From the NCBI RefSeq assembly GCF_001029285.1, contig NZ_LDZY01000001.1, positions 248,001-312,000 on the forward strand: a stretch of DNA of 64,000 nt, read 5' to 3'. The DNA is from Desulfosporosinus acididurans (GTDB taxonomy: Bacteria > Bacillota > Desulfitobacteriia > Desulfitobacteriales > Desulfitobacteriaceae). Made by a program: the position numbers and the translations under genes. Below the pieces are notes generated by a model that was not told the origin of the DNA, searched no databases, and saw only the letters and a list, made by a program, of their open reading frames with translations. Below are positions 2 to 17,816 of this stretch, piece by piece; within the stretch, counting starts at the first letter, position 1; each line of letters opens with the position of its first letter.

Positions 2-265
2 ATTGAAAGCCAAATATCAGCCATATGCAAATCAAAAAACGGAAGATATTATAAATCAAAATCCAAGTCTGCTAAATATGCAATAATTTTTAGCCCATAT
101 AGCAGACTAAACTCAAATATAGGGCGATTAAGGGAAGAAGGATATAAGGTGACAACACTTGAAAGAGCCCTTCAACATTTTGGCCTTTATCATTTGTTGG
201 ATTATGAGTTAATGGTTCAAAAAGAAAAGGAAGCTATAGATTATTTAAAATCAAGATACTGTTAA
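2..265 (+). CDS. C-terminal fragment of unknown protein (cut by window edge)
   Basis: An open frame runs from the first complete codon to a TAA at 263-265 and gives 87 residues with no start inside the window, so the gene begins to the left. The visible part is basic and mixed in composition: an N-terminal Lys/Ser-rich stretch, then a segment ending LERALQHFGLYHLLDYEL and a charged tail. I do not recognise the family. A perfect hairpin with a T run follows about 50 bases later, which supports a real gene that ends here. It points toward the minus-strand genes beginning at 396, so it marks the edge of a convergent pair. Confidence 0.55.
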   Translation: MESQISAICKSKNGRYYKSKSKSAKYAIIFSPYSRLNSNIGRLREEGYKVTTLERALQHFGLYHLLDYELMVQKEKEAIDYLKSRYC

Positions 266-312
266 ACGAAATATCTTTGCATGAAATGTCAATCATGGTG
301 GATCGGGTAACA

Positions 313-338
313 AAAAAGAGAGCTTAAGCTCTCTTTTT
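313..338. terminator. bidirectional hairpin terminator
   Basis: A perfect 26-base palindrome has a core of GAGAGCTTAAGCTCTC flanked by A5 and T5. It would stop the plus-strand partial gene at 265 and the minus-strand gene ending at 396. Confidence 0.8.
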
Positions 339-395
339 CATGTGGGGATATTACGGGAAGTAACCGCGGTATTCTATACAGTATTAGAAAATACG

Positions 396-644
396 TTACA
401 TCTTCCACAACAACCACTTGCAAGTATTCAATTCGTATTTTAGCTCAAAGCGTTTCAGCTCTCTGTTAATCTCACTTTGGCACTTAAACAGCAACATCCA
501 GTTCCCTGCGATCTTCTCTTCTTCCATGGAGATGACCTGCTCGATCTTGACCTCTTTGTCATCGAGTTTCATGCGGATTGGTTGAGGACGGCCGTTAAGT
601 TCGAACCAAGCTAGGACAGAGATAGGCGTAGCATAAATTTTCAT
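396..644 (-). CDS. 82-aa conserved small protein, intact copy of the R2 family
   Basis: This small protein begins MKIYATPISVLAWFELNGRP and continues with a charged, beta-rich-looking body containing Phe/Trp/Leu and a single Cys. I do not know its function. Its ATG overlaps the stop of the upstream methyltransferase by four bases (ATGA), so it is probably translationally coupled to it. Decayed copies of its first 12-20 codons occur three more times in this window (1558-1610, 3731-3765, 6801-6870), always on the same strand, and each lies downstream of another minus-strand cargo gene. The intact copy here therefore looks like the founder of a recurring 3' flank. No enzyme motif is visible. Confidence 0.7.
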   Translation of the reverse strand: MKIYATPISVLAWFELNGRPQPIRMKLDDKEVKIEQVISMEEEKIAGNWMLLFKCQSEINRELKRFELKYELNTCKWLLWKM

Positions 645-1441
645 TTGTCTATCTCTATCTCATAATTACTTATGAATAATTCCTTGGCAAAGCTGCTTTT
701 ATCGGTTTTGCAAACTGAATATCTTACTTCTATCTCCTTAATGTTAAAGTCGGAATACAGCGCTCGAATCTCCGGATGGTCATTAATACTTAGCAAAAAC
801 TTTCCCTTTATTTTAGCCAGACATTCCTTCAATCTAATATGATCATCTTTAGAAAATGGTTTGCTCCCCTGACTTGTATAATCAGCCAATCCATAATATG
901 GCGGATCACAATAGAAAAACGTTGAAGAACGATCGTAACTTAATATAATCTTCTCGACATCCCTGTTCTCTATAATGGTATTTATCAGCCTGTCCCTCAC
1001 AGAGGTTATGCTTTCCCTTACTCGTTCAAGAGTCATCGGTGGCTTCCTTAAAGGACTAATCATAAAATCCTTCATTAAAGATCCAAAGCTAAAATGTAAT
1101 AGGTAATAAAACCTGACTGCCCTTTTTACATCTGAGGTTCCGCTGAGACTTAGAGCCTTGTATTTCTGGAATATTTCTCTTGAAATAAGTAGATAATCCA
1201 ACGCCTGTATGAATTCTTCGGGCTTTTCCTTTACTACTCGAAAAAAGTTAATTAGTTCAGAGTTTATATCGTTGTAGACTTCTACTTTAGAAGGAACCTT
1301 TTCAAAGAGGACCCAGCCAGCGCCTCCGAAGGGCTCACAGTAGCATACATGCTCTGGTATCATCTTTACGATGGTTTTCCTTAGTCTATATTTGCCACCC
1401 ATCCATTTGATTGGACTATTCAAGTCTTCACCACCAAACAT
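641..1441 (-). CDS. D12-class DNA adenine (N6) methyltransferase
   Basis: The protein is 266 residues and carries the hallmarks of D12/Dam-type N6-adenine methyltransferases: an N-terminal KWMGGKYRLR, a SAM-binding FGGAGWVLFEK at about residues 38-48, and the catalytic DPPY near residue 180. It would methylate adenine in duplex DNA using S-adenosylmethionine. No cognate restriction enzyme is adjacent, so it may be an orphan or phage-type methyltransferase. The ATG at 1441 has no clear ribosome binding site; a TTG at 1423 preceded by GGTGGTGA is an alternative start that keeps the whole conserved domain. The recognition site cannot be read from the sequence. Confidence 0.88.
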   Translation of the reverse strand: MFGGEDLNSPIKWMGGKYRLRKTIVKMIPEHVCYCEPFGGAGWVLFEKVPSKVEVYNDINSELINFFRVVKEKPEEFIQALDYLLISREIFQKYKALSLSGTSDVKRAVRFYYLLHFSFGSLMKDFMISPLRKPPMTLERVRESITSVRDRLINTIIENRDVEKIILSYDRSSTFFYCDPPYYGLADYTSQGSKPFSKDDHIRLKECLAKIKGKFLLSINDHPEIRALYSDFNIKEIEVRYSVCKTDKSSFAKELFISNYEIEIDK

Positions 1442-1510
1442 TTGTATTATTTTGTTAGATCATTTGTTCTAATTATATAACTATAGTTCATGGATGACTA
1501 GCCCCAAAAA

Positions 1511-1536
1511 GCAAAAAATCCCCTCATTAAGAGGGG
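1511..1536 (-). terminator. minus-strand hairpin terminator
   Basis: A CCCCTC/GAGGGG hairpin is followed on the minus strand by a run of six T. It lies after the UPF0489 gene and the R2 relic, separating that unit from the methyltransferase. Confidence 0.7.
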
Positions 1537-1557
1537 ACATCAAGAAAAGTAGTACAT

Positions 1558-1610
1558 CCGTTGATTTCGAATCAGACAAGAACGGAGATGGGGGTGGCGA
1601 TGATTTTTAT
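1558..1610 (-). pseudogene. R2 relic: decayed 5' end of the 82-aa gene
   Basis: Read on the minus strand this translates as IKIIATPISVLV, stop, FEING, matching MKIYATPISVLAWFELNG of the intact 82-aa protein. The start Met is Ile and the Trp codon is TGA. Many differences from the intact copy are silent (GCT/GCC, CCT/CCC, TCT/TCC), so the copy diverged under protein-level selection before it broke. It sits 22 bases after the stop of the UPF0489 gene. Confidence 0.75.
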
Positions 1611-1632
1611 ATTACATTCCTTCCTAATGTAA

Positions 1633-2400
1633 TTATCTCAAACTGCATTCAATCTGAAGCTCATTAAGTAAGGTTGGATAAAATAAGTTATTGTCCAGAA
1701 TATTAAACAAATGATTAGAATTTCGCAAACCTCCACAAAAATCCGGTTCTAAGGCTATAGTCATACCCTTAAGTTTCGGTAAAATCAATTGCATTAGGGG
1801 CGAGTGAGGCGAAATCGTTTTTACCACCTCTTCATCATTGACTAACTTCACATCTACACCCCCACCACAAGCATCCTTACTTTCGGTAAAATAATCCAAA
1901 TCGATATCAAAGTATATCGAGTTAATGTCATCTTTTTTTAGACAATCTATCAATTCATCAATTGTATAAAACACCTTTCCGTTATGTTTTTTGCCAAGAT
2001 AATCTGTAAAAGGAAATATATCATCATACTCTCTCTGCTTGCACAACACGTAGATTTTTGACACTAGATTTAAATATGCCGCCGCTAATATTTGCCCATC
2101 ATTACATGGATTGAGTTTATATGCAGTGAAAATACCTACTTCATTAAAATCATCTCGATTTAGTGCTGTTAAATCATCACATTCCATCTCACTCAATGGG
2201 GCCAAATCTTGATGCCAATCCAGCGATACTAACGTTGAGGGAACATTCTCTGCTTGTAAACTTGCCCATTTAGTCCAATAATAAAAGGCAAAACGGTGTT
2301 CATTTAGTACAGAAACGTTAACAACTTTATCATTATAATCATTATGAAGTATATAATTAAAGGTCCCGGGCATTGTTCTATCTTCATAATTCCAATTCAC
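1633..2400 (-). CDS. UPF0489 family protein (arginase-fold)
   Basis: The 255-residue protein has the two metal-site signatures of the UPF0489 family: SLDWHQDL near residue 58-65 and FDIDLDYF near residue 164-171. The family adopts an arginase/deacetylase-like fold, and some members (OspR type) are peptide arginases that convert arginine to ornithine in ribosomal peptides; whether this member does so is unknown and no precursor peptide gene is adjacent. It starts at a GTG with GGGGGG five bases upstream. The gene is preceded by an R1 promoter block and followed by an R2 relic, so it looks like one cargo gene of the island. Confidence 0.7.
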   Translation of the reverse strand: MNWNYEDRTMPGTFNYILHNDYNDKVVNVSVLNEHRFAFYYWTKWASLQAENVPSTLVSLDWHQDLAPLSEMECDDLTALNRDDFNEVGIFTAYKLNPCNDGQILAAAYLNLVSKIYVLCKQREYDDIFPFTDYLGKKHNGKVFYTIDELIDCLKKDDINSIYFDIDLDYFTESKDACGGGVDVKLVNDEEVVKTISPHSPLMQLILPKLKGMTIALEPDFCGGLRNSNHLFNILDNNLFYPTLLNELQIECSLR

Positions 2401-2506
2401 TTTATCCCCCCTAATAATGAATCAAATGATTTCTTCATTATTAATTAATTGACATCCAACAATTATTTATTAGCCTTTTATTTTTTCTAGCAAAACAAAA
2501 GTATTT

Positions 2507-2548
2507 AGAATCTCACACCTTCCCCGCAAGTAAGGGGAAACTTGTCTA
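2507..2548 (-). promoter_or_regulatory. R1 promoter/operator block, copy A (UPF0489 gene)
   Basis: On the minus strand the block reads GACAAGTTTCCCCTTACTT, then a GC-rich spacer, then TGnGATnnT, a weak extended -10. It contains an inverted repeat CAAGT-N8-ACTTG. The predicted start is about 100 bases before the GTG of the UPF0489 gene. Three further copies occur at 3655, 4008 and 8479. Confidence 0.6.
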
Positions 2549-2664: not shown

Positions 2665-3612
2665 TCAAAAGATAGCTTTAATTCTAGTATCCAATTTGTC
2701 ATATAGGTCATTTTCAGTTACCCAAACTATATGATTATACTGCCGAGTATCAAAGTGAAGATCTTTAACGTGATCCTCTCTACATGTCCAAATTACCGGT
2801 TTCCCTAAACCAATCGCAAAACCAGCCTCGTAATAAACACCACCACGATTAAAGGTGAAATCTGCTACAACATATTTACATCTCCTTATATCGGCAATGA
2901 TACGATCAGAAATTTGTTCAATATGTTCCTCGTAATCTACTCGAATAGGATTATATCCATTGTCACTAATAGCCTTTGCAATACTATTCTCGTAGACAGT
3001 AATTAAAGAAGGATCAAAAGACATAGCTATAAAGACACTTTTATTATCTTTTTGATCTCCTAGTTCCAATTCTGCGACTTTGCCCCAACCTTTTGGCGTT
3101 AACCGAACCTCATTGGGCAACGATAGACCATTATCTTTTAGCTCAATGAGGTTTTCATCAATCAACTGTTTCATAATATAAAATTGCGCTGTTGTATTAT
3201 TCTTATCAGCATAAAAAAGAGAATAGTCATTAGCCGTTACCTTGATAAAATCACCTGAATATGCAGACAATTTGGCAAGATTTAAAAGAACCAAATCCAG
3301 TCGATCAAAAATCAACCTCGGAAATTGTTCGATAATTTGATCAAGGCCTATACCAGATGGCACTGATAAAGCAGACGTTCTATTAAGACAGATGATGGGT
3401 AGAGATGAGCCTTGAATATATCTATTTCTTAAATATGCAGATATCTTTGCTGAATGTTCATTTCGAGTTGCGTTACCTTTAAAATTTAATAAAGATAAAG
3501 CTTCATGATGTATAGCGTATTCACCACAAACTGGACAAGAGAAACTAAGAATCGCACCATTAGTTAATGATTGCTGCGAAGCTGATGTATTATCACAAAT
3601 TGCGCAAGCCAT
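2665..3612 (-). CDS. zinc-ribbon protein with C-terminal deoxyribosyltransferase/TIR-fold domain
   Basis: The 315-residue protein opens with two Cys pairs (CAIC at 3-6 and CPVC near 26-29) that look like a zinc ribbon. A helical middle region follows. The C-terminal 125 residues start KSVFIAMSFD and include YVVADFTFN and GVYYEAGFAIGLGKPVIW, the pattern of the nucleoside 2-deoxyribosyltransferase/TIR-like fold, with the Glu of YEAGFA in the catalytic position. Relatives cleave N-glycosidic bonds in nucleosides or NAD, which suggests a nucleotide-sensing or abortive defence role; this is inference. The start ATG has GGAGG nine bases upstream, and an R1 block lies about 45 bases before it. Confidence 0.7.
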   Translation of the reverse strand: MACAICDNTSASQQSLTNGAILSFSCPVCGEYAIHHEALSLLNFKGNATRNEHSAKISAYLRNRYIQGSSLPIICLNRTSALSVPSGIGLDQIIEQFPRLIFDRLDLVLLNLAKLSAYSGDFIKVTANDYSLFYADKNNTTAQFYIMKQLIDENLIELKDNGLSLPNEVRLTPKGWGKVAELELGDQKDNKSVFIAMSFDPSLITVYENSIAKAISDNGYNPIRVDYEEHIEQISDRIIADIRRCKYVVADFTFNRGGVYYEAGFAIGLGKPVIWTCREDHVKDLHFDTRQYNHIVWVTENDLYDKLDTRIKAIF

Positions 3613-8520: not shown

Positions 8521-8533
8521 TTGTTCTAAAAGC

Positions 8534-8558
8534 AAAAAGACCCTATGTGGGTCTTTTT
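8534..8558. terminator. bidirectional hairpin terminator
   Basis: AAAAAGACCC-TATGT-GGGTCTTTTT lies just upstream of R1 copy D, insulating the dGTPase promoter from the divergent side. Confidence 0.75.
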
Positions 8559-8676
8559 GTTTGAAATTTTGTCGTAATACCATTATTCTTGTCGCGTGAT
8601 AGGAATATGAATTAAACTATAGAAAGTCTAAATATTCTGTTTTGCTGAGAAGTTTTTGTTAAGGAGGTTATTCACA

Positions 8677-9729
8677 ATGACTAAATTAGATCCCAAATGC
8701 TATGTACCGATCTTAAAATGGAAGAAAGGCGAACAAGAAGCCCTCAGGCATCTTGAACCTGTTAAAAAACAGTTAATTACACCTATTATTGAAGTCGTTG
8801 ATCCAGTTGACCCGAGGAAAATTGTAGATGACCTTGACTATTGTTTTCAATATCCTATTTTTCTTGATACCTTCAATGTTGAACAGTACGACATAAGTCT
8901 CCTGAAACAGATAACTGACGAATTCACAAGCCGCGGAAGGAATAGTTACCCAATTTTATACTTTGATAACTTGAGTGATAATTTCTCCATAATTTCCAGC
9001 TGCGCAAATAGGATAGCTATAAGAATTCCCGTCCCTGAGTGCGTAGATGGCCCAACTTATCAAGAAATTATAAAGGAAATTAAAAGGGTAAAATTGAAAA
9101 ATCAATCGACTTATATTGATTTAATTTTAGATTTAGGAGTAATCGATACCAGTACAGCTTCAATTTATCTTCACGCCACAATATCTCTCCTGGAGGACTA
9201 TCTGATTAATGAGGACTTTTATGACAGGATCATCATTGCCGTAACTTCATTCCCTGAGGATTTACAATCAGTACCAAAGTCGGGATCTGAAGAATATAGC
9301 AGAATTGACTTCTCTCTCTTTGTTAAATTAATAAGTCTCAATAATCTGAAAAATATTCGTGAACGTATGATCTATTCAGACTATGGTGTTACAAAATTCT
9401 CCGATTCGGATATTGACTTCAGTAAATTGCGGTATGGTATTTTGCCCAAAGTAAGATATACTACCGATAAGACATATTGGGTCCTTAAAGGAGAAAAGGA
9501 CATTGTTACTCGCGTAATGATTAAAAGTTATGTTGATTTAGCAAAGGAAATTTCTCTTTCTCCTAAATATTACGGAGAGACATTCTCATTCGGAGATTTG
9601 GATATTAAGGAAAGAGCTTTTGGTTTAAATAAAAAAGGTCCTGGTGGAAACAAAGATTGGGTTACGATATCGGCAAATCACCATATAGTTGTTTTAATTC
9701 AACAGCTTTCCACTCTTCTCGGGATTTAA
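8677..9729 (+). CDS. beta family protein (sce7725-like)
   Basis: The 350-residue protein begins MTKLDPKCYVPILKWKKGEQ, the typical opening of the phage T4 beta protein family (sce7725-like), and keeps the recurring TIM-barrel-like pattern of Ile/Asp strands. I chose ATG 8677 because AAGGAGG lies ten bases upstream. Members are often found next to sce7726-family genes in mobile islands; that partner is present here, convergent and overlapping at the 3' ends by 68 bases. The biochemical function is not known; a defence pair is an inference from context. Confidence 0.72.
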   Translation: MTKLDPKCYVPILKWKKGEQEALRHLEPVKKQLITPIIEVVDPVDPRKIVDDLDYCFQYPIFLDTFNVEQYDISLLKQITDEFTSRGRNSYPILYFDNLSDNFSIISSCANRIAIRIPVPECVDGPTYQEIIKEIKRVKLKNQSTYIDLILDLGVIDTSTASIYLHATISLLEDYLINEDFYDRIIIAVTSFPEDLQSVPKSGSEEYSRIDFSLFVKLISLNNLKNIRERMIYSDYGVTKFSDSDIDFSKLRYGILPKVRYTTDKTYWVLKGEKDIVTRVMIKSYVDLAKEISLSPKYYGETFSFGDLDIKERAFGLNKKGPGGNKDWVTISANHHIVVLIQQLSTLLGI

Positions 9730-10276
9730 TGGATTTTCGGACAAAATCTTTGATAACTGTACAATCTATCTTTTCGACAGCAACTCTACCAAGTTGCTGT
9801 CGTGTTTTACTCTTTATTCCTTTACAAATACCATTTATCATCAAAAGACTAATCAATTCTTCCTTCCACAATAGCTGAGATACTGAGAAAATATCAACTG
9901 AAGGGTTTATTTTGGCCTGTCTTTTCCTTACAAGACGAGCTTCATTTTTGTTTTTCTCAACGGAATAAATTCCCCAGAACTCAGGGATCAATGTATTGAC
10001 TTTTTCTAAATGGTCGTTTGCTGCAACTATAGAAACTGTGTCAAAAATCATATTATATGCCTTGATTTGATATGGAAGTCTTTCAAGTGAATCTCTTTCG
10101 CTCTTTATTTCGTATCCATGCATTTTTCCATTAACAACCGCAACATCCACCCTTGAAGATCCATAACAAATGTCCATTTCATAAATCAATTTGGTAGAAG
10201 GATCTGAGGTAAAATGTTTCATGTTAAGAAACTTTTCAACTAAAAGTTTTCGAATATCCTTATCATAAACTTTCAC
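9662..10276 (-). CDS. sce7726 family protein, PD-(D/E)XK nuclease-like
   Basis: The protein (204 residues from the GTG) contains SRVDVAVVNGKMHGYEIKSE, in which VDVAVV and YEIK fit the D...ExK active site of PD-(D/E)XK nucleases, followed by SLERLPYQI. This matches the sce7726 family. GTG 10276 is preferred because GGAGG lies eight bases before it; the longer ATG at 10297 has no site and would place the Shine-Dalgarno inside the gene. It faces the beta family gene tail-to-tail and shares its last 68 bases with it, so the two transcripts are antisense at the ends. Confidence 0.7.
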   Translation of the reverse strand: MKVYDKDIRKLLVEKFLNMKHFTSDPSTKLIYEMDICYGSSRVDVAVVNGKMHGYEIKSERDSLERLPYQIKAYNMIFDTVSIVAANDHLEKVNTLIPEFWGIYSVEKNKNEARLVRKRQAKINPSVDIFSVSQLLWKEELISLLMINGICKGIKSKTRQQLGRVAVEKIDCTVIKDFVRKSIKSREEWKAVELKQLYGDLPIS

Positions 10277-10426
10277 CGACATCACCTCCACTCCCATGCT
10301 AGTACTATTATTATCTTCAAGCTTGTTACTGTCAATGGTTACTGTATGCCCAGATTCTTAAACTATAGACATAATCCTATTTTATCCCTAGCGCTTCTTC
10401 AAACTAAGTAGGTTCAAAACCAGAAA

Positions 10427-10489
10427 AATTCCTCCCTCGCATAATCGAGAGAGGAATTCATTCACTTAGCGTCGGCCGGCACCGACGCT
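10427..10489 (-). terminator. two tandem hairpins after the LLH holin gene
   Basis: AGCGTCGG/CCGACGCT at 10468-10489 is followed on the minus strand by AATTCCTC...GAGGAATT with TTTTT. Together they end the lysis cassette transcript. Confidence 0.7.
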
Positions 10490-13057: not shown

Positions 13058-14140
13058 ATGATAATACAATGGATTGTAAAAAACCAAACAATAGCTTTTT
13101 TCGTTATTTTGTGTAGTATCGCTGGAATAATCTTTCCAATAATAAGCCATAAAAGGGAATGGTTAAAAAGAGTCATACTAGGTATGTTTGTTATCTTTAT
13201 TATCATTATATCTATAGATAAAATAATAGACGTTAAGGCAGCTATAAATATTACGGAAGCAAATACGGTAGCGTCAACACAACCACAGGCACAAGCTCCG
13301 ACTCCAACTCAGACCCAAACACAAGCTCCAACTCAGACCCAAACACAGTCCCCAACTCAGACCCAAACACAGTCCCCAACTCAGACTCAAACACAGTCCC
13401 CAACTCAGACTCAAACACAGTCCCCAACTCAGACTCAAACACAGTCCCCAACTCAAACTCAAACACAGTCCCCAACTCAAACTCAAACTCAGTCCCCAAC
13501 TCAGACTCAAACACAGTCCCCAACTCAAACTCAAACACAGTCCCCAACTCAAACTCAAACTCAGTCCCCAACTCAGACTCAAACACAGTCCCCAACTCAA
13601 ACTCAAACACAGTCCATAACGATTAGCCCTTCCAGAATAAATAAGCAAACAGATAACTATGATTCTATTGTAATCACAGGTTACAATACACACTTCTCAC
13701 AAGACCGAACACATTTACAAATTTTATATTACGGAATAGAAGACGCTATTGGTGGATCAAAACTTAATGTTCTTAGCCCGACTAAAGCGGAATTACTCAA
13801 TTTCGGGGGTGGTAGATCTACGGGGGAATACCAAATAACCTTGTCTACTGATGGAGAATCCCAGAATACAACGCTTTTAATAGTTACAAACCTCCCTACA
13901 GGTGCGATTAGAGGCACGGTCGTGGATGCGAACAACAAACCTGTTGCTAATGCTACTATTGAAGTTATACTTAATAATAGTACAATGCGGACATCAACCA
14001 ATCAAAATGGCCAATTTGAAATGGGTGATTTGCCAGTGGGTAGTTTGACCATTTTTGCCCAAGGAAATAGTGCTCAGGGGGAAACTATTGTCCAAGTAAA
14101 TGAAAATAGTTTAGGATCTTGCACCATTCAATTGCGATAA
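13058..14140 (+). CDS. membrane-anchored protein with PTQTQTQS repeats and carboxypeptidase-regulatory-like domain
   Basis: The 360-residue protein starts with two hydrophobic spans (about residues 10-30 and 37-52). It then has a long hydrophilic Pro/Thr/Gln/Ser linker made of 8-residue units, an IPT/TIG-like beta domain (about 190-280), and a C-terminal GTVVDANNKPVANATIEVIL segment typical of CarboxypepD_reg-like folds. It would place the beta domains outside the membrane on a flexible stalk. GGAGGG precedes the ATG by about eleven bases. It is divergent from the lysis cassette. No enzymatic motif is seen. Confidence 0.72.
   Translation: MIIQWIVKNQTIAFFVILCSIAGIIFPIISHKREWLKRVILGMFVIFIIIISIDKIIDVKAAINITEANTVASTQPQAQAPTPTQTQTQAPTQTQTQSPTQTQTQSPTQTQTQSPTQTQTQSPTQTQTQSPTQTQTQSPTQTQTQSPTQTQTQSPTQTQTQSPTQTQTQSPTQTQTQSPTQTQTQSITISPSRINKQTDNYDSIVITGYNTHFSQDRTHLQILYYGIEDAIGGSKLNVLSPTKAELLNFGGGRSTGEYQITLSTDGESQNTTLLIVTNLPTGAIRGTVVDANNKPVANATIEVILNNSTMRTSTNQNGQFEMGDLPVGSLTIFAQGNSAQGETIVQVNENSLGSCTIQLR
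13323..13610 (+). repeat. 24-bp tandem repeat encoding PTQTQTQS units
   Basis: Twelve 24-base units (CAGTCCCCAACTCAGACTCA type) lie in frame; the first encodes Ala in place of the Ser before Pro. Units differ only at a few silent sites (CAG/CAA, ACA/ACT, ACC/ACT), and pairs of identical variants recur, which points to recent unit duplication. Confidence 0.95.
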
Positions 14141-15786: not shown

Positions 15787-15856
15787 GCCCAAATAATAAA
15801 TGAGGCATGATATCATTCTTTTGCAAACCCAATTTACTTTGGAAAGGATGATAATC

Positions 15857-16717
15857 ATGCCTCAAACTTCTCGTACTCTTTCACCACATTTTCAAAAAAT
15901 GCAGATCGAAATGGAACTTCGTGGTTTATCCCCTCAAACCCTACAACAATATTTTATCCCTTTAAGGCTCCTAGAAAAACATTTTGATAAACCTGCCTTT
16001 GAAGTCTCACCTGATGAACTCAAACAATATCTTTATCATCGCATCAAATCTGGTATTAGTAACAGCAGTCTCAACATTTCCTGCAGTGCATTTAAGCTCT
16101 TTTTTAACAAGGTTCTCAACTACAACTGGTCAGATGATGTTATTATTCGCCCAAAACGCCCTAAAAAACTTCCTTATGTGCTTTCTCAAAACGAGATTCT
16201 AGCAATTATAGATCAATTGAGTAATATTAAACACAAAGCCATTCTCCTAACCACGTATTCTTCTGGCTTGAGAATTAGTGAAACTCTGAGTCTCCGGGTC
16301 TCCGATATTGATTCTGAGAACATGCTGATTAGAATCAATGATGGCAAAGGTAGTAAAGATCGTCTAACTGTTCTTTCTATTAAAAACCTTAAACTATTAA
16401 GGCGTTATTGGAAACTTTATCGACCAACTGATTTACTTTTTCCAGGTCCTATTGAGGGCAAACCTCTTTCCGCGCGCAATATTCAATATGTTTTTTCAAG
16501 TGCTAAACAAAAAGCAGGTATTTCGAAACCCGCTACAGTCCATACCCTTCGGCACAGTTTCGCGACTCATTTGCTTGAGAATCGTACTGATCTCAGAACC
16601 ATTCAGATGCTGATGGGGCATAGTAATATTTCCACGACTTCTAAATATATTCACCTCTCTACTGCCCATATTGCCTCAGTTAGAAGCCCTCTTGATGGTC
16701 GTGATCCAAATGCCTGA
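15857..16717 (+). CDS. tyrosine recombinase (phage integrase family)
   Basis: The 286-residue protein has an N-terminal SAM-like core-binding domain (about 10-90) and a catalytic domain with the expected residues: Arg in SSGLRISE, HTLRHSFATH (His-x-x-Arg), LMGHSNISTT and the Tyr of SKYIHLS. ATG 15857 is chosen because GGAAAGG lies nine bases before it. Its stop overlaps the start of the IS91 transposase by eight bases (ATGCCTGA), so the two are made together and probably act on the same element. Confidence 0.88.
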   Translation: MPQTSRTLSPHFQKMQIEMELRGLSPQTLQQYFIPLRLLEKHFDKPAFEVSPDELKQYLYHRIKSGISNSSLNISCSAFKLFFNKVLNYNWSDDVIIRPKRPKKLPYVLSQNEILAIIDQLSNIKHKAILLTTYSSGLRISETLSLRVSDIDSENMLIRINDGKGSKDRLTVLSIKNLKLLRRYWKLYRPTDLLFPGPIEGKPLSARNIQYVFSSAKQKAGISKPATVHTLRHSFATHLLENRTDLRTIQMLMGHSNISTTSKYIHLSTAHIASVRSPLDGRDPNA

Positions 16718-17816
16718 ACTTCAGGATATTTTTGCTCAGGTTTATCTGAATTCTATGTCATCTGATCAAGCGAAAGCATTCAATATGATTCGCCATTGCA
16801 GAACAGCTTCCCTTGGATCTCATTCTGACGTTTGTACTGAATGTGGTGCAGTTGACGTTTCTTATAATTCCTGTCGAAACAGACATTGTCCTAAATGCCA
16901 ACATTCTGTCCAAGAGCATTGGGTTGAGGCTCAGATGCCCAAACTTTTGCCTGTCGGTTACTTTCACATTGTTTTTACGATTCCTCAAGAATTGAACACC
17001 CTTGTCTTGCAAAATCAGGAACTTCTATATTCCCTGCTTATTCGATCAGCTGGTCATACTTTAACCGAACTTGCTAAAGACCCAAAATACCTTGGAGCAA
17101 CAACCGGAGTAACCTCCGTTCTCCATACATGGGGTCAGAACTTATCCTTTCATCCTCATGTTCACTGTATAGTTCCCGGTGGAGGGCTTTCCAATGATGG
17201 TCTCCGTTTTGTTCGTTCGAGTAAGAAATTTTTTATTCCGGTTAAGGTAATTTCAAAAAAATTTAAGGGTAAGTTCCTTTATCTTTTGAAACAGGTTTTT
17301 AATGAGGGGAAGATAAGCTTCTTTAACAATGCTGTCAGTCTTTCGTCCAGAAGCAATTTCCTTTCCTTAGTCGATAGTTTGTATCTTAAAGACTGGGTTG
17401 TTTTCTGTAAAAAACCATTTAAATCTCCAGCTCATGTTGTTAGATATCTTGGTCGTTATACCCACAGAGTCGCAATTAGCAACTCTAGGATTCAGGCATT
17501 TGACGGTAAATCGGTGAGTTTTTCGTGGAAGGATTATAGGGATGGTAATAAGTCTAAGGTGATGACTCTTGATGCTAAAGAATTTGCTAGAAGATTTCTT
17601 CTGCATGTACTTCCCACTCGTTTTGTAAAGATCCGACATTATGGCATAATGTGCAGCCGTAATATTAGTACTAAGCTTTCAAAATGTATGAAGCTTATTG
17701 GAAAGAAACCTTTAAAAATTATTACCCCGAAACCAAACCAAAACAAGATCTGTCGGTATTGTGGAAATCAAAATATCATTTTATTTTTCCCTAAACACTC
17801 GTGTGCAGGTCCATAA
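16710..17816 (+). CDS. IS91 family transposase (HUH, zinc-binding)
   Basis: The protein of 368 residues has an N-terminal zinc domain (CTECGAVDVSYNSCRNRHCP), the HUH metal motif HPHVHCIVPGGG and a tyrosine region YLGRYTHRVAISNSRI, the marks of rolling-circle IS91 transposases. A C-terminal CRYCGNQN adds a second Cys pair. The start ATG at 16710 is inside the end of the recombinase gene. It appears intact, so the element may still be active. Confidence 0.9.
   Translation: MPELQDIFAQVYLNSMSSDQAKAFNMIRHCRTASLGSHSDVCTECGAVDVSYNSCRNRHCPKCQHSVQEHWVEAQMPKLLPVGYFHIVFTIPQELNTLVLQNQELLYSLLIRSAGHTLTELAKDPKYLGATTGVTSVLHTWGQNLSFHPHVHCIVPGGGLSNDGLRFVRSSKKFFIPVKVISKKFKGKFLYLLKQVFNEGKISFFNNAVSLSSRSNFLSLVDSLYLKDWVVFCKKPFKSPAHVVRYLGRYTHRVAISNSRIQAFDGKSVSFSWKDYRDGNKSKVMTLDAKEFARRFLLHVLPTRFVKIRHYGIMCSRNISTKLSKCMKLIGKKPLKIITPKPNQNKICRYCGNQNIILFFPKHSCAGP

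Follow-up and report, generated by a model that had tools for sequence, protein, structure and literature searches.

A convergent beta–sce7726 gene pair with a recurrent tail-to-tail coding joint, a candidate two-gene phage-defence module

Two facing genes in the 64,000-nucleotide stretch of Desulfosporosinus acididurans DNA analysed here (the window) share their last 68 bp, one encoding a Beta_protein and the other a PD-(D/E)XK nuclease-like protein of the sce7726 family. The same convergent and usually overlapping arrangement recurs across many phyla and in phages, most often with exactly the same number of bases between two conserved codons. By analogy with characterized relatives, we lean slightly towards reading the pair as a minimal, prophage-borne phage-defence module of two genes, in which the sce7726 protein would act as nuclease effector under the control of beta. 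The pair would then be a gop-less member of a family of beta-centred defence modules that includes gop-beta-cII of satellite P4 and the PD-lambda-2-like operons.

Results

The two genes share their last 68 bp

In the ORF table, 8656-9729 (+) and 9662-10297 (-) face each other and have 9662-9729 in common, which confirms the two reading frames and the 68-bp tail-to-tail overlap described in a first-pass annotation of this DNA (Table 1). Ribosome-binding sites favour the starts proposed there, ATG 8677 and GTG 10276, over the longer ORFs, and residues are numbered from these codons (350 and 204 aa). The length of the overlap is not special in itself, as 13% of random synonymous recodings of the beta tail, with the phase as here, reach at least 68 bp; the excess over chance lies in the geometry repeated among relatives. 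For comparison, among 28 convergent CDS pairs counted by hand from tables for four 50-kb stretches (200 kb) of one E. coli chromosome, just three have overlaps, of 8, 14 and 16 bp.

Table 1. Features of the beta–sce7726 locus, in window coordinates
Feature	Position	Strand	Basis
beta gene, 350 aa, Beta_protein	8677-9729	+	PF14350 1.7e-42; start from ribosome-binding site
Shine-Dalgarno AAGGAGG of beta, 9-nt spacer to ATG 8677	8661-8667	+	sequence
Candidate terminator of beta transcript, 11-bp hairpin and T-rich tail, inside sce7726	9775-9802	+	pattern scan only
sce7726-family gene, 204 aa, PD-(D/E)XK nuclease-like	9662-10276	-	NF033832 3.1e-52
Shine-Dalgarno GGAGG of sce7726, 8-nt spacer to GTG 10276	10285-10289	-	sequence
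Promoter-like TTGACA-17-AATAAT ahead of sce7726, 11/12 match	10307-10335	-	consensus scan only
Tail-to-tail coding overlap, 68 bp	9662-9729	both	ORF coordinates
Butt joint: beta His336 codon 9682-9684, 25 bp, sce7726 Trp189 codon 9710-9712 (minus)	9682-9712		
Terminator-like hairpin upstream of beta, candidate cassette boundary	8530-8562	+	pattern scan only
Terminator-like hairpins upstream of sce7726, other candidate boundary	10459-10426; 10468-10489	-; +	pattern scan only

Beta is a predicted TIM barrel and sce7726 a predicted nuclease

The partner of sce7726 had been labelled sce7725-like, an identity that we reject: the gene matches PF14350 and no NCBIfam family at E <= 0.01, NF033831 (sce7725) included. 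PADLOC assigns it to PD-Lambda-2_C (PDLC03983, 2.9e-30) and, at 2.3e-6, to beta. The AlphaFold2 model (pLDDT 91.6), which matches TIM-barrel chains with Z scores of 14.1 and 13.9, predicts a TIM barrel with a C-terminal helix bearing the conserved His336, and in this predicted fold the helix that holds the histidine is encoded across the joint. Beta also carries invariant Asp, Arg, Tyr and His residues. A predicted TIM barrel says little about chemistry, and we claim no enzyme class for beta because its Foldseek matches, which include TIM barrels, are heterogeneous and have low TM-scores. At loci L010/L116, L080 and L234, beta is broken into two ORFs, with the overlapping 3' part and sce7726 still open.

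The window sce7726 protein scores 177.2 bits against NF033832, for which the curated cut-off is 70, and PADLOC matches it to cll (7.9e-32); we take Rst_gop_beta_cll to be PADLOC's system name for gop-beta-cII of satellite P4. Across 32 aligned sequences E33, D44, E56, K58 and Q70 are invariant, E56 and K58 forming an E-x-K motif, and the catalytic-type residues are present in P4 cII too; a C-terminal KxRxxW, whose Trp is W189, is also conserved. The structure model (pLDDT 92.0) matches 3dnx (Z 9.9 over 130 residues) and PaqCI (8.7), as well as EndoMS (7.5), LmuA (7.2) and Cap4 (6.1), values below 8 being of a size that can reflect a common arrangement; all five chains are PD-(D/E)XK proteins. 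The best Foldseek match is weak (E 9e-3), and neither sce7726 nor beta has a sequence relative in the PDB at E <= 0.01. The modelled PD-(D/E)XK core fold and the E...D...ExK residues together predict nuclease activity.

The convergent pair recurs across phyla and phages

That the two families co-occur elsewhere is borne out for beta and sce7726 across many phyla, and the neighbour survey proposed in the first-pass annotation finds the convergent, overlapping orientation recurring just as widely. Our survey loci are the best 80 of 228 viral and the best 80 of 379 species-genome loci confirmed as relatives of the window sce7726; because best-scoring relatives were taken, they lean towards its own subfamily, and neither count is dereplicated (L058 and L166 are apparently one contig, and further loci are present in both collections). 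A convergent beta ORF accompanies sce7726 at 77 of these 80 viral loci, overlapping it in 76, and at 71 of the 80 genome loci (68 overlapping, 3 not), whose titles name Firmicutes-type genera, Proteobacteria, Actinobacteria, Acidobacteria, Flavobacteriales and myxobacteria, among others. Convergent beta is missing from three viral loci (L047, L058, L089) and nine genome loci (L121, L148, L159, L161, L166, L177, L181, L183, L191); L047, L089, L148, L161 and L181 end with their contig, less than 300 bp beyond sce7726, whereas the other beta-less loci do not.

Samples drawn with beta first are without this subfamily lean. Thirteen of 398 genomes of the window's phylum have beta, and all 13 loci carry an overlapping convergent sce7726, the 12 other than the window's own overlapping by 44-86 bp, all in its phase. 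A class-level sample gave beta in 4 of 82 genomes, at five loci, each convergent and overlapping with sce7726. The phylum of Phytobacter massiliensis is less uniform: of 16 beta matches in 13 of 398 genomes, 11 have a convergent sce7726, with nine overlapping (six in the usual phase) and two abutting within 5 bp, and sce7726 is missing at the other five (L249, L254, L255, L260, L262).

The nuclease family also has other settings. Matches to sce7726 turn up in 569 phage records, chiefly from phages of Staphylococcus, Bacillus, Enterococcus and Listeria; in Twort-like phages, among the matches listed, about residues 6-154 of the 211-aa sce7726 ORF are covered. In these Twort-like phages tblastn finds no beta, a search in which the window beta matches one phage record and which missed the Gordonia phage beta described below. 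In three Melainabacteria MAGs (L159, L183, L191), sce7726 is convergent with a different gene of ~711 aa, overlapping it by 10-13 bp, with a DUF4384/DUF4388 match in L183, the only one scanned; this gene may be another partner of the nuclease family.

The essential coding stretches meet at a joint of fixed spacing

We pooled 156 pairs and dereplicated them at ~80% sce7726 similarity to 99. The genes overlap in 95 of the 99, and 87 of the 95 overlaps have a length of 2 mod 3, that is, a single phase. Exactly 25 bp lie between the beta His codon and the sce7726 Trp codon in 79 of the 99 pairs (78 of the 96 in which both residues are present). Six pairs, all with alphaproteobacterial titles, have 30 bp, and the remaining exceptions are spacings of 26, 28, 33, 40, 55, 64-69 and 100 bp, and P4. 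Base-by-base conservation over these 79 loci with the 25-bp spacing tracks the codon positions of beta until about +25 past the His codon, then those of sce7726 from +26, switching frame within ~3 bp. At the meeting point beta ends its conserved part in NHH-x6-QL and sce7726, on the opposite strand, in KxRxxW[RK]; from the codons, roughly 1-3 bp appear to do double duty, for Leu-Ser/Ala in beta versus Trp-Arg/Lys in sce7726. Because conservation swaps frame at the joint, the essential coding stretches meet there end to end on opposite strands, and the overlapping tails beyond it look unconstrained and free to vary.

The joint looks ancient, since it recurs, usually at the same spacing, in very distant bacteria and in phages. 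In the Gordonia phage Powerball the pair is convergent with an 89-bp overlap, and the 25-bp spacing is common to phage and window at 33% identity for sce7726 and 19% for beta. The earlier suggestion that the overlap locks the two genes together is supported in the sense of joint inheritance. Whether the overlap does anything beyond this is a separate matter, and we think that it probably does not: it could have arisen once and persisted as only an insertion at the joint undoes it, a reading compatible with any other offered here. The constraint changes from beta's frame to that of sce7726 at the joint, the overlaps measure anything between 4 and 336 bp and their tails vary, and some pairs lack an overlap altogether, with gaps of 27 bp in P4, 14 in L045, 39 in L165, 5 in L250 and 0 in both L156 and L252. 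Harder to square with a functionless overlap is the precision of the spacing, both in the 79 pairs with exactly 25 bp and in the Gordonia phage and Rac, which keep exactly 25 bp at 19-27% (beta) and 33-37% (sce7726) identity to the window proteins. The pattern of constraint favours a frozen, hard-to-escape arrangement, to which opposed transcription might add something. In a literature search that was thin on subscription papers, no title or abstract recognizably described this conserved overlap.

The window pair probably lies in a prophage remnant or island

A dGTPase gene (TIGR01353) stands upstream of beta in divergent orientation, and beyond sce7726 come phage lysis genes, encoding a holin (PF05105) and an endolysin-like protein; a DinB-type polymerase gene is in the neighbourhood and a phage integrase gene at 15800-16717. 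Since the subset of window ORFs that was scanned contains no capsid, portal or convincing terminase gene, the pair probably sits in a prophage remnant or island. It had been said to adjoin a dGTPase and a methyltransferase, which is right for the former but not for the latter: the D12 methyltransferase gene (641-1441) is ~7 kb away, and we rejected it as a part of the module. We likewise discarded the dGTPase as a component, as no dGTPase-like ORF (at least 100 aa, E <= 1e-5) occurs in the 160 survey loci with flanks of up to 5 kb.

Several other features of the island deserve mention. Just outside the lysis genes, 13058-14140 encodes a long SPTQTQTQ tandem repeat followed by a C-terminal carboxypeptidase-regulatory-like domain, and at 15800-17816 an IS91-type transposase ORF begins, in the same orientation, inside the integrase gene. 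A 315-aa protein encoded at 2665-3612, with a weak, below-cut-off match to the nucleoside deoxyribosyltransferase family PF05014, is possibly the product of a further defence gene.

Neighbours of this kind, namely the dGTPase, the polymerase and the lysis genes, together with the presence of the pair in many phage contigs and the service of PD-(D/E)XK proteins in repair as well, would suit a non-defence role in which prophages keep the pair for their own replication, as a DNA-metabolism or recombination function. We consider this improbable. The distribution is patchy, as expected for cargo, with beta in so few genomes of the class-level sample, the pair occurs on plasmids too (including L197-L199), and the relatives with experimental support are defence systems, as reported in two studies (PMC9122126, PMC9519451).

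Related partners occur in a second, co-directional architecture

In relatives of the host, all five loci read (L015-L019) have a long-type sce7726 followed by a co-directional sce7725; three scanned partners match NF033831 at 1e-102 to 1e-106, and the remaining two share 79-87% identity with one of these. A third gene is present in four of the five (not L019), with a RES domain in both copies scanned and an N-terminal HEPN match below its cut-off, and the three-gene run of L015-L018 is possibly an uncharacterized defence or toxin-antitoxin system. Profile comparison favours a single family for long and short sce7726 (98.9%), and hhalign aligns sce7725 with beta in the C-terminal part only (probability 72.7, E 3.2e-5), so that sce7725 is a probable distant relative of beta. 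The retention of related partners in two architectures speaks for a joint function of the proteins and against the overlap as the sole reason for their linkage.

Some PD-lambda-2-like operons include beta and sce7726

PD-lambda-2 consists of a HigB-like component, an Xre-peptidase and a component resembling a P4 antitoxin (PMC9519451). In five of the 160 survey loci (L138, L173, L175, L188, L189), a PD-lambda-2B-like gene lies directly upstream of beta with an overlapping sce7726, as it does in L199. The PADLOC scan of the B gene covered L199, and the other B genes were matched to that of L199 by phmmer. The first gene of the L199 operon matches PDC-M63A and no PD-lambda-2 A profile. In L175, L188 and L189, we read a small HigB-like ORF as the first gene. 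Loci L245, L246, L248 and L256 also combine PD-lambda-2-like parts with beta and sce7726. Seven PD-lambda-2B loci taken in full are mixed: L245 and L246 have beta and sce7726, L240 and L241 have beta alone, L242 has an incomplete beta close to the end of its contig, and L243 and L244 lack both. Beta can thus do without the nuclease, given L240 and L241, and at L243 and L244 the B gene stands with neither partner.

Discussion

How would such a pair work? Transcription of the two genes converges, with a separate promoter probable for each. From its conserved residues and modelled fold, we infer that sce7726 is a PD-(D/E)XK nuclease and likely the effector, and beta would most likely restrain this nuclease and then release or direct it on infection. 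Because the essential coding stretches meet at the butt joint, neither gene has a private stop codon, and each carries on through the antisense of its partner as far as the first stop. The geometry would be ancestral, with separation of the genes by insertion or deletion a rare event.

A stricter toxin-antitoxin scheme, in which sce7726 kills the cell, beta is a dedicated antitoxin and infection upsets their balance to give abortive infection, strikes us as unlikely, although a RES-domain gene does stand beside the sister sce7725 form in the loci scanned and opposed, overlapping transcripts could tie the levels of the two products. Toxin-antitoxin pairs seldom consist of convergent genes, each with its own promoter, and beta, a large TIM barrel with the invariant residues named above, is more than a simple antitoxin needs. 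Relatives of beta do belong to the toxin-antitoxin-like PD-lambda-2; however, its C component, a relative of a P4 antitoxin, was dispensable for neutralizing the toxin, although defence required it (PMC9519451).

Returning to the nuclease-and-controller module that we favour, an anti-phage role, as the first-pass annotation had proposed, is plausible by analogy because gop-beta-cII, with relatives of both genes, protects against lambda and P1 and because a relative of beta is needed for defence by PD-lambda-2 (PMC9122126, PMC9519451). More broadly, and with a confidence that stops short of even, beta and sce7726 may form the core of a modular defence superfamily, with toxins added 5' of beta (gop, or HigB-like and Xre-peptidase genes) or after the sister pair (RES). 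In such a superfamily many PD-lambda-2-like operons would have in sce7726 a partner that has been overlooked, and the phase-locked antisense joint would couple the genes physically and perhaps in expression. This scheme ties gop-beta-cII and PD-lambda-2, which have been described separately, to an uncharacterized nuclease family, and on this scheme sce7726 should contribute to the working of both systems. A coding overlap kept to the base across several phyla and phages also offers a clean natural test case for regulation versus linkage versus frozen accident.

Among known systems, PD-lambda-2 resembles the window pair in its third component, C, which PADLOC recognizes in the window beta. By contrast, the window pair comes with no HigB-like A or Xre-peptidase B gene; the divergent dGTPase upstream of beta leaves no room for them. 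The enterobacterial loci with the best-scoring B genes (L240, L241) differ in the other direction, having beta without sce7726. The sce7726–sce7725 pair shares the nuclease family (NF033832) with the window, but is co-directional, has a longer sce7726 and usually includes the third gene.

Further parallels are in P4 and Rac. An entirely new system is not what we see, as the P4 relative has already been described: the P4 record has gop at 247-648 (+), beta at 651-1718 (+) and cII at 1746-2540 (-), the last annotated as sce7726 family, so that homologues of beta and cII stand in the same convergent order in P4 and in the window. PF14350 is matched by P4 beta as by the window beta, and tblastn aligns the window sce7726 with P4 cII at 28.5% identity (1e-12) over 98% of the query. 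In contrast to the window pair, P4 has gop upstream of beta, its beta and cII do not overlap but are separated by the 27-bp gap, in which a terminator is annotated, and its cII, which carries a long extension at the C-terminus, has no counterpart of the conserved Trp. Unless beta is present, gop is toxic (PMC9122126). Where P4 has gop, the window has just a 67-aa ORF, which stops 177 bp short of the beta ORF. Among same-strand ORFs of at least 40 aa within 200 bp upstream at 50 loci (L041 and L051 having no room upstream), nothing but P4's own gene matches gop at E <= 1. Nor did another conserved upstream toxin emerge, as the upstream ORFs do not cluster, apart from a single two-member cluster of 82- and 346-aa ORFs. 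As neither gop nor another toxin is linked to the pair, the toxin-antitoxin logic of P4 does not transfer unchanged. Rac-SA53 (KU052037), with a hok/mok locus upstream of its beta on the other strand, is the difference in setting and the likeness in geometry combined: its beta and CII genes are convergent, overlap by 41 bp and keep the 25-bp joint, and this version of the pair is present in 93 of 5426 E. coli genomes.
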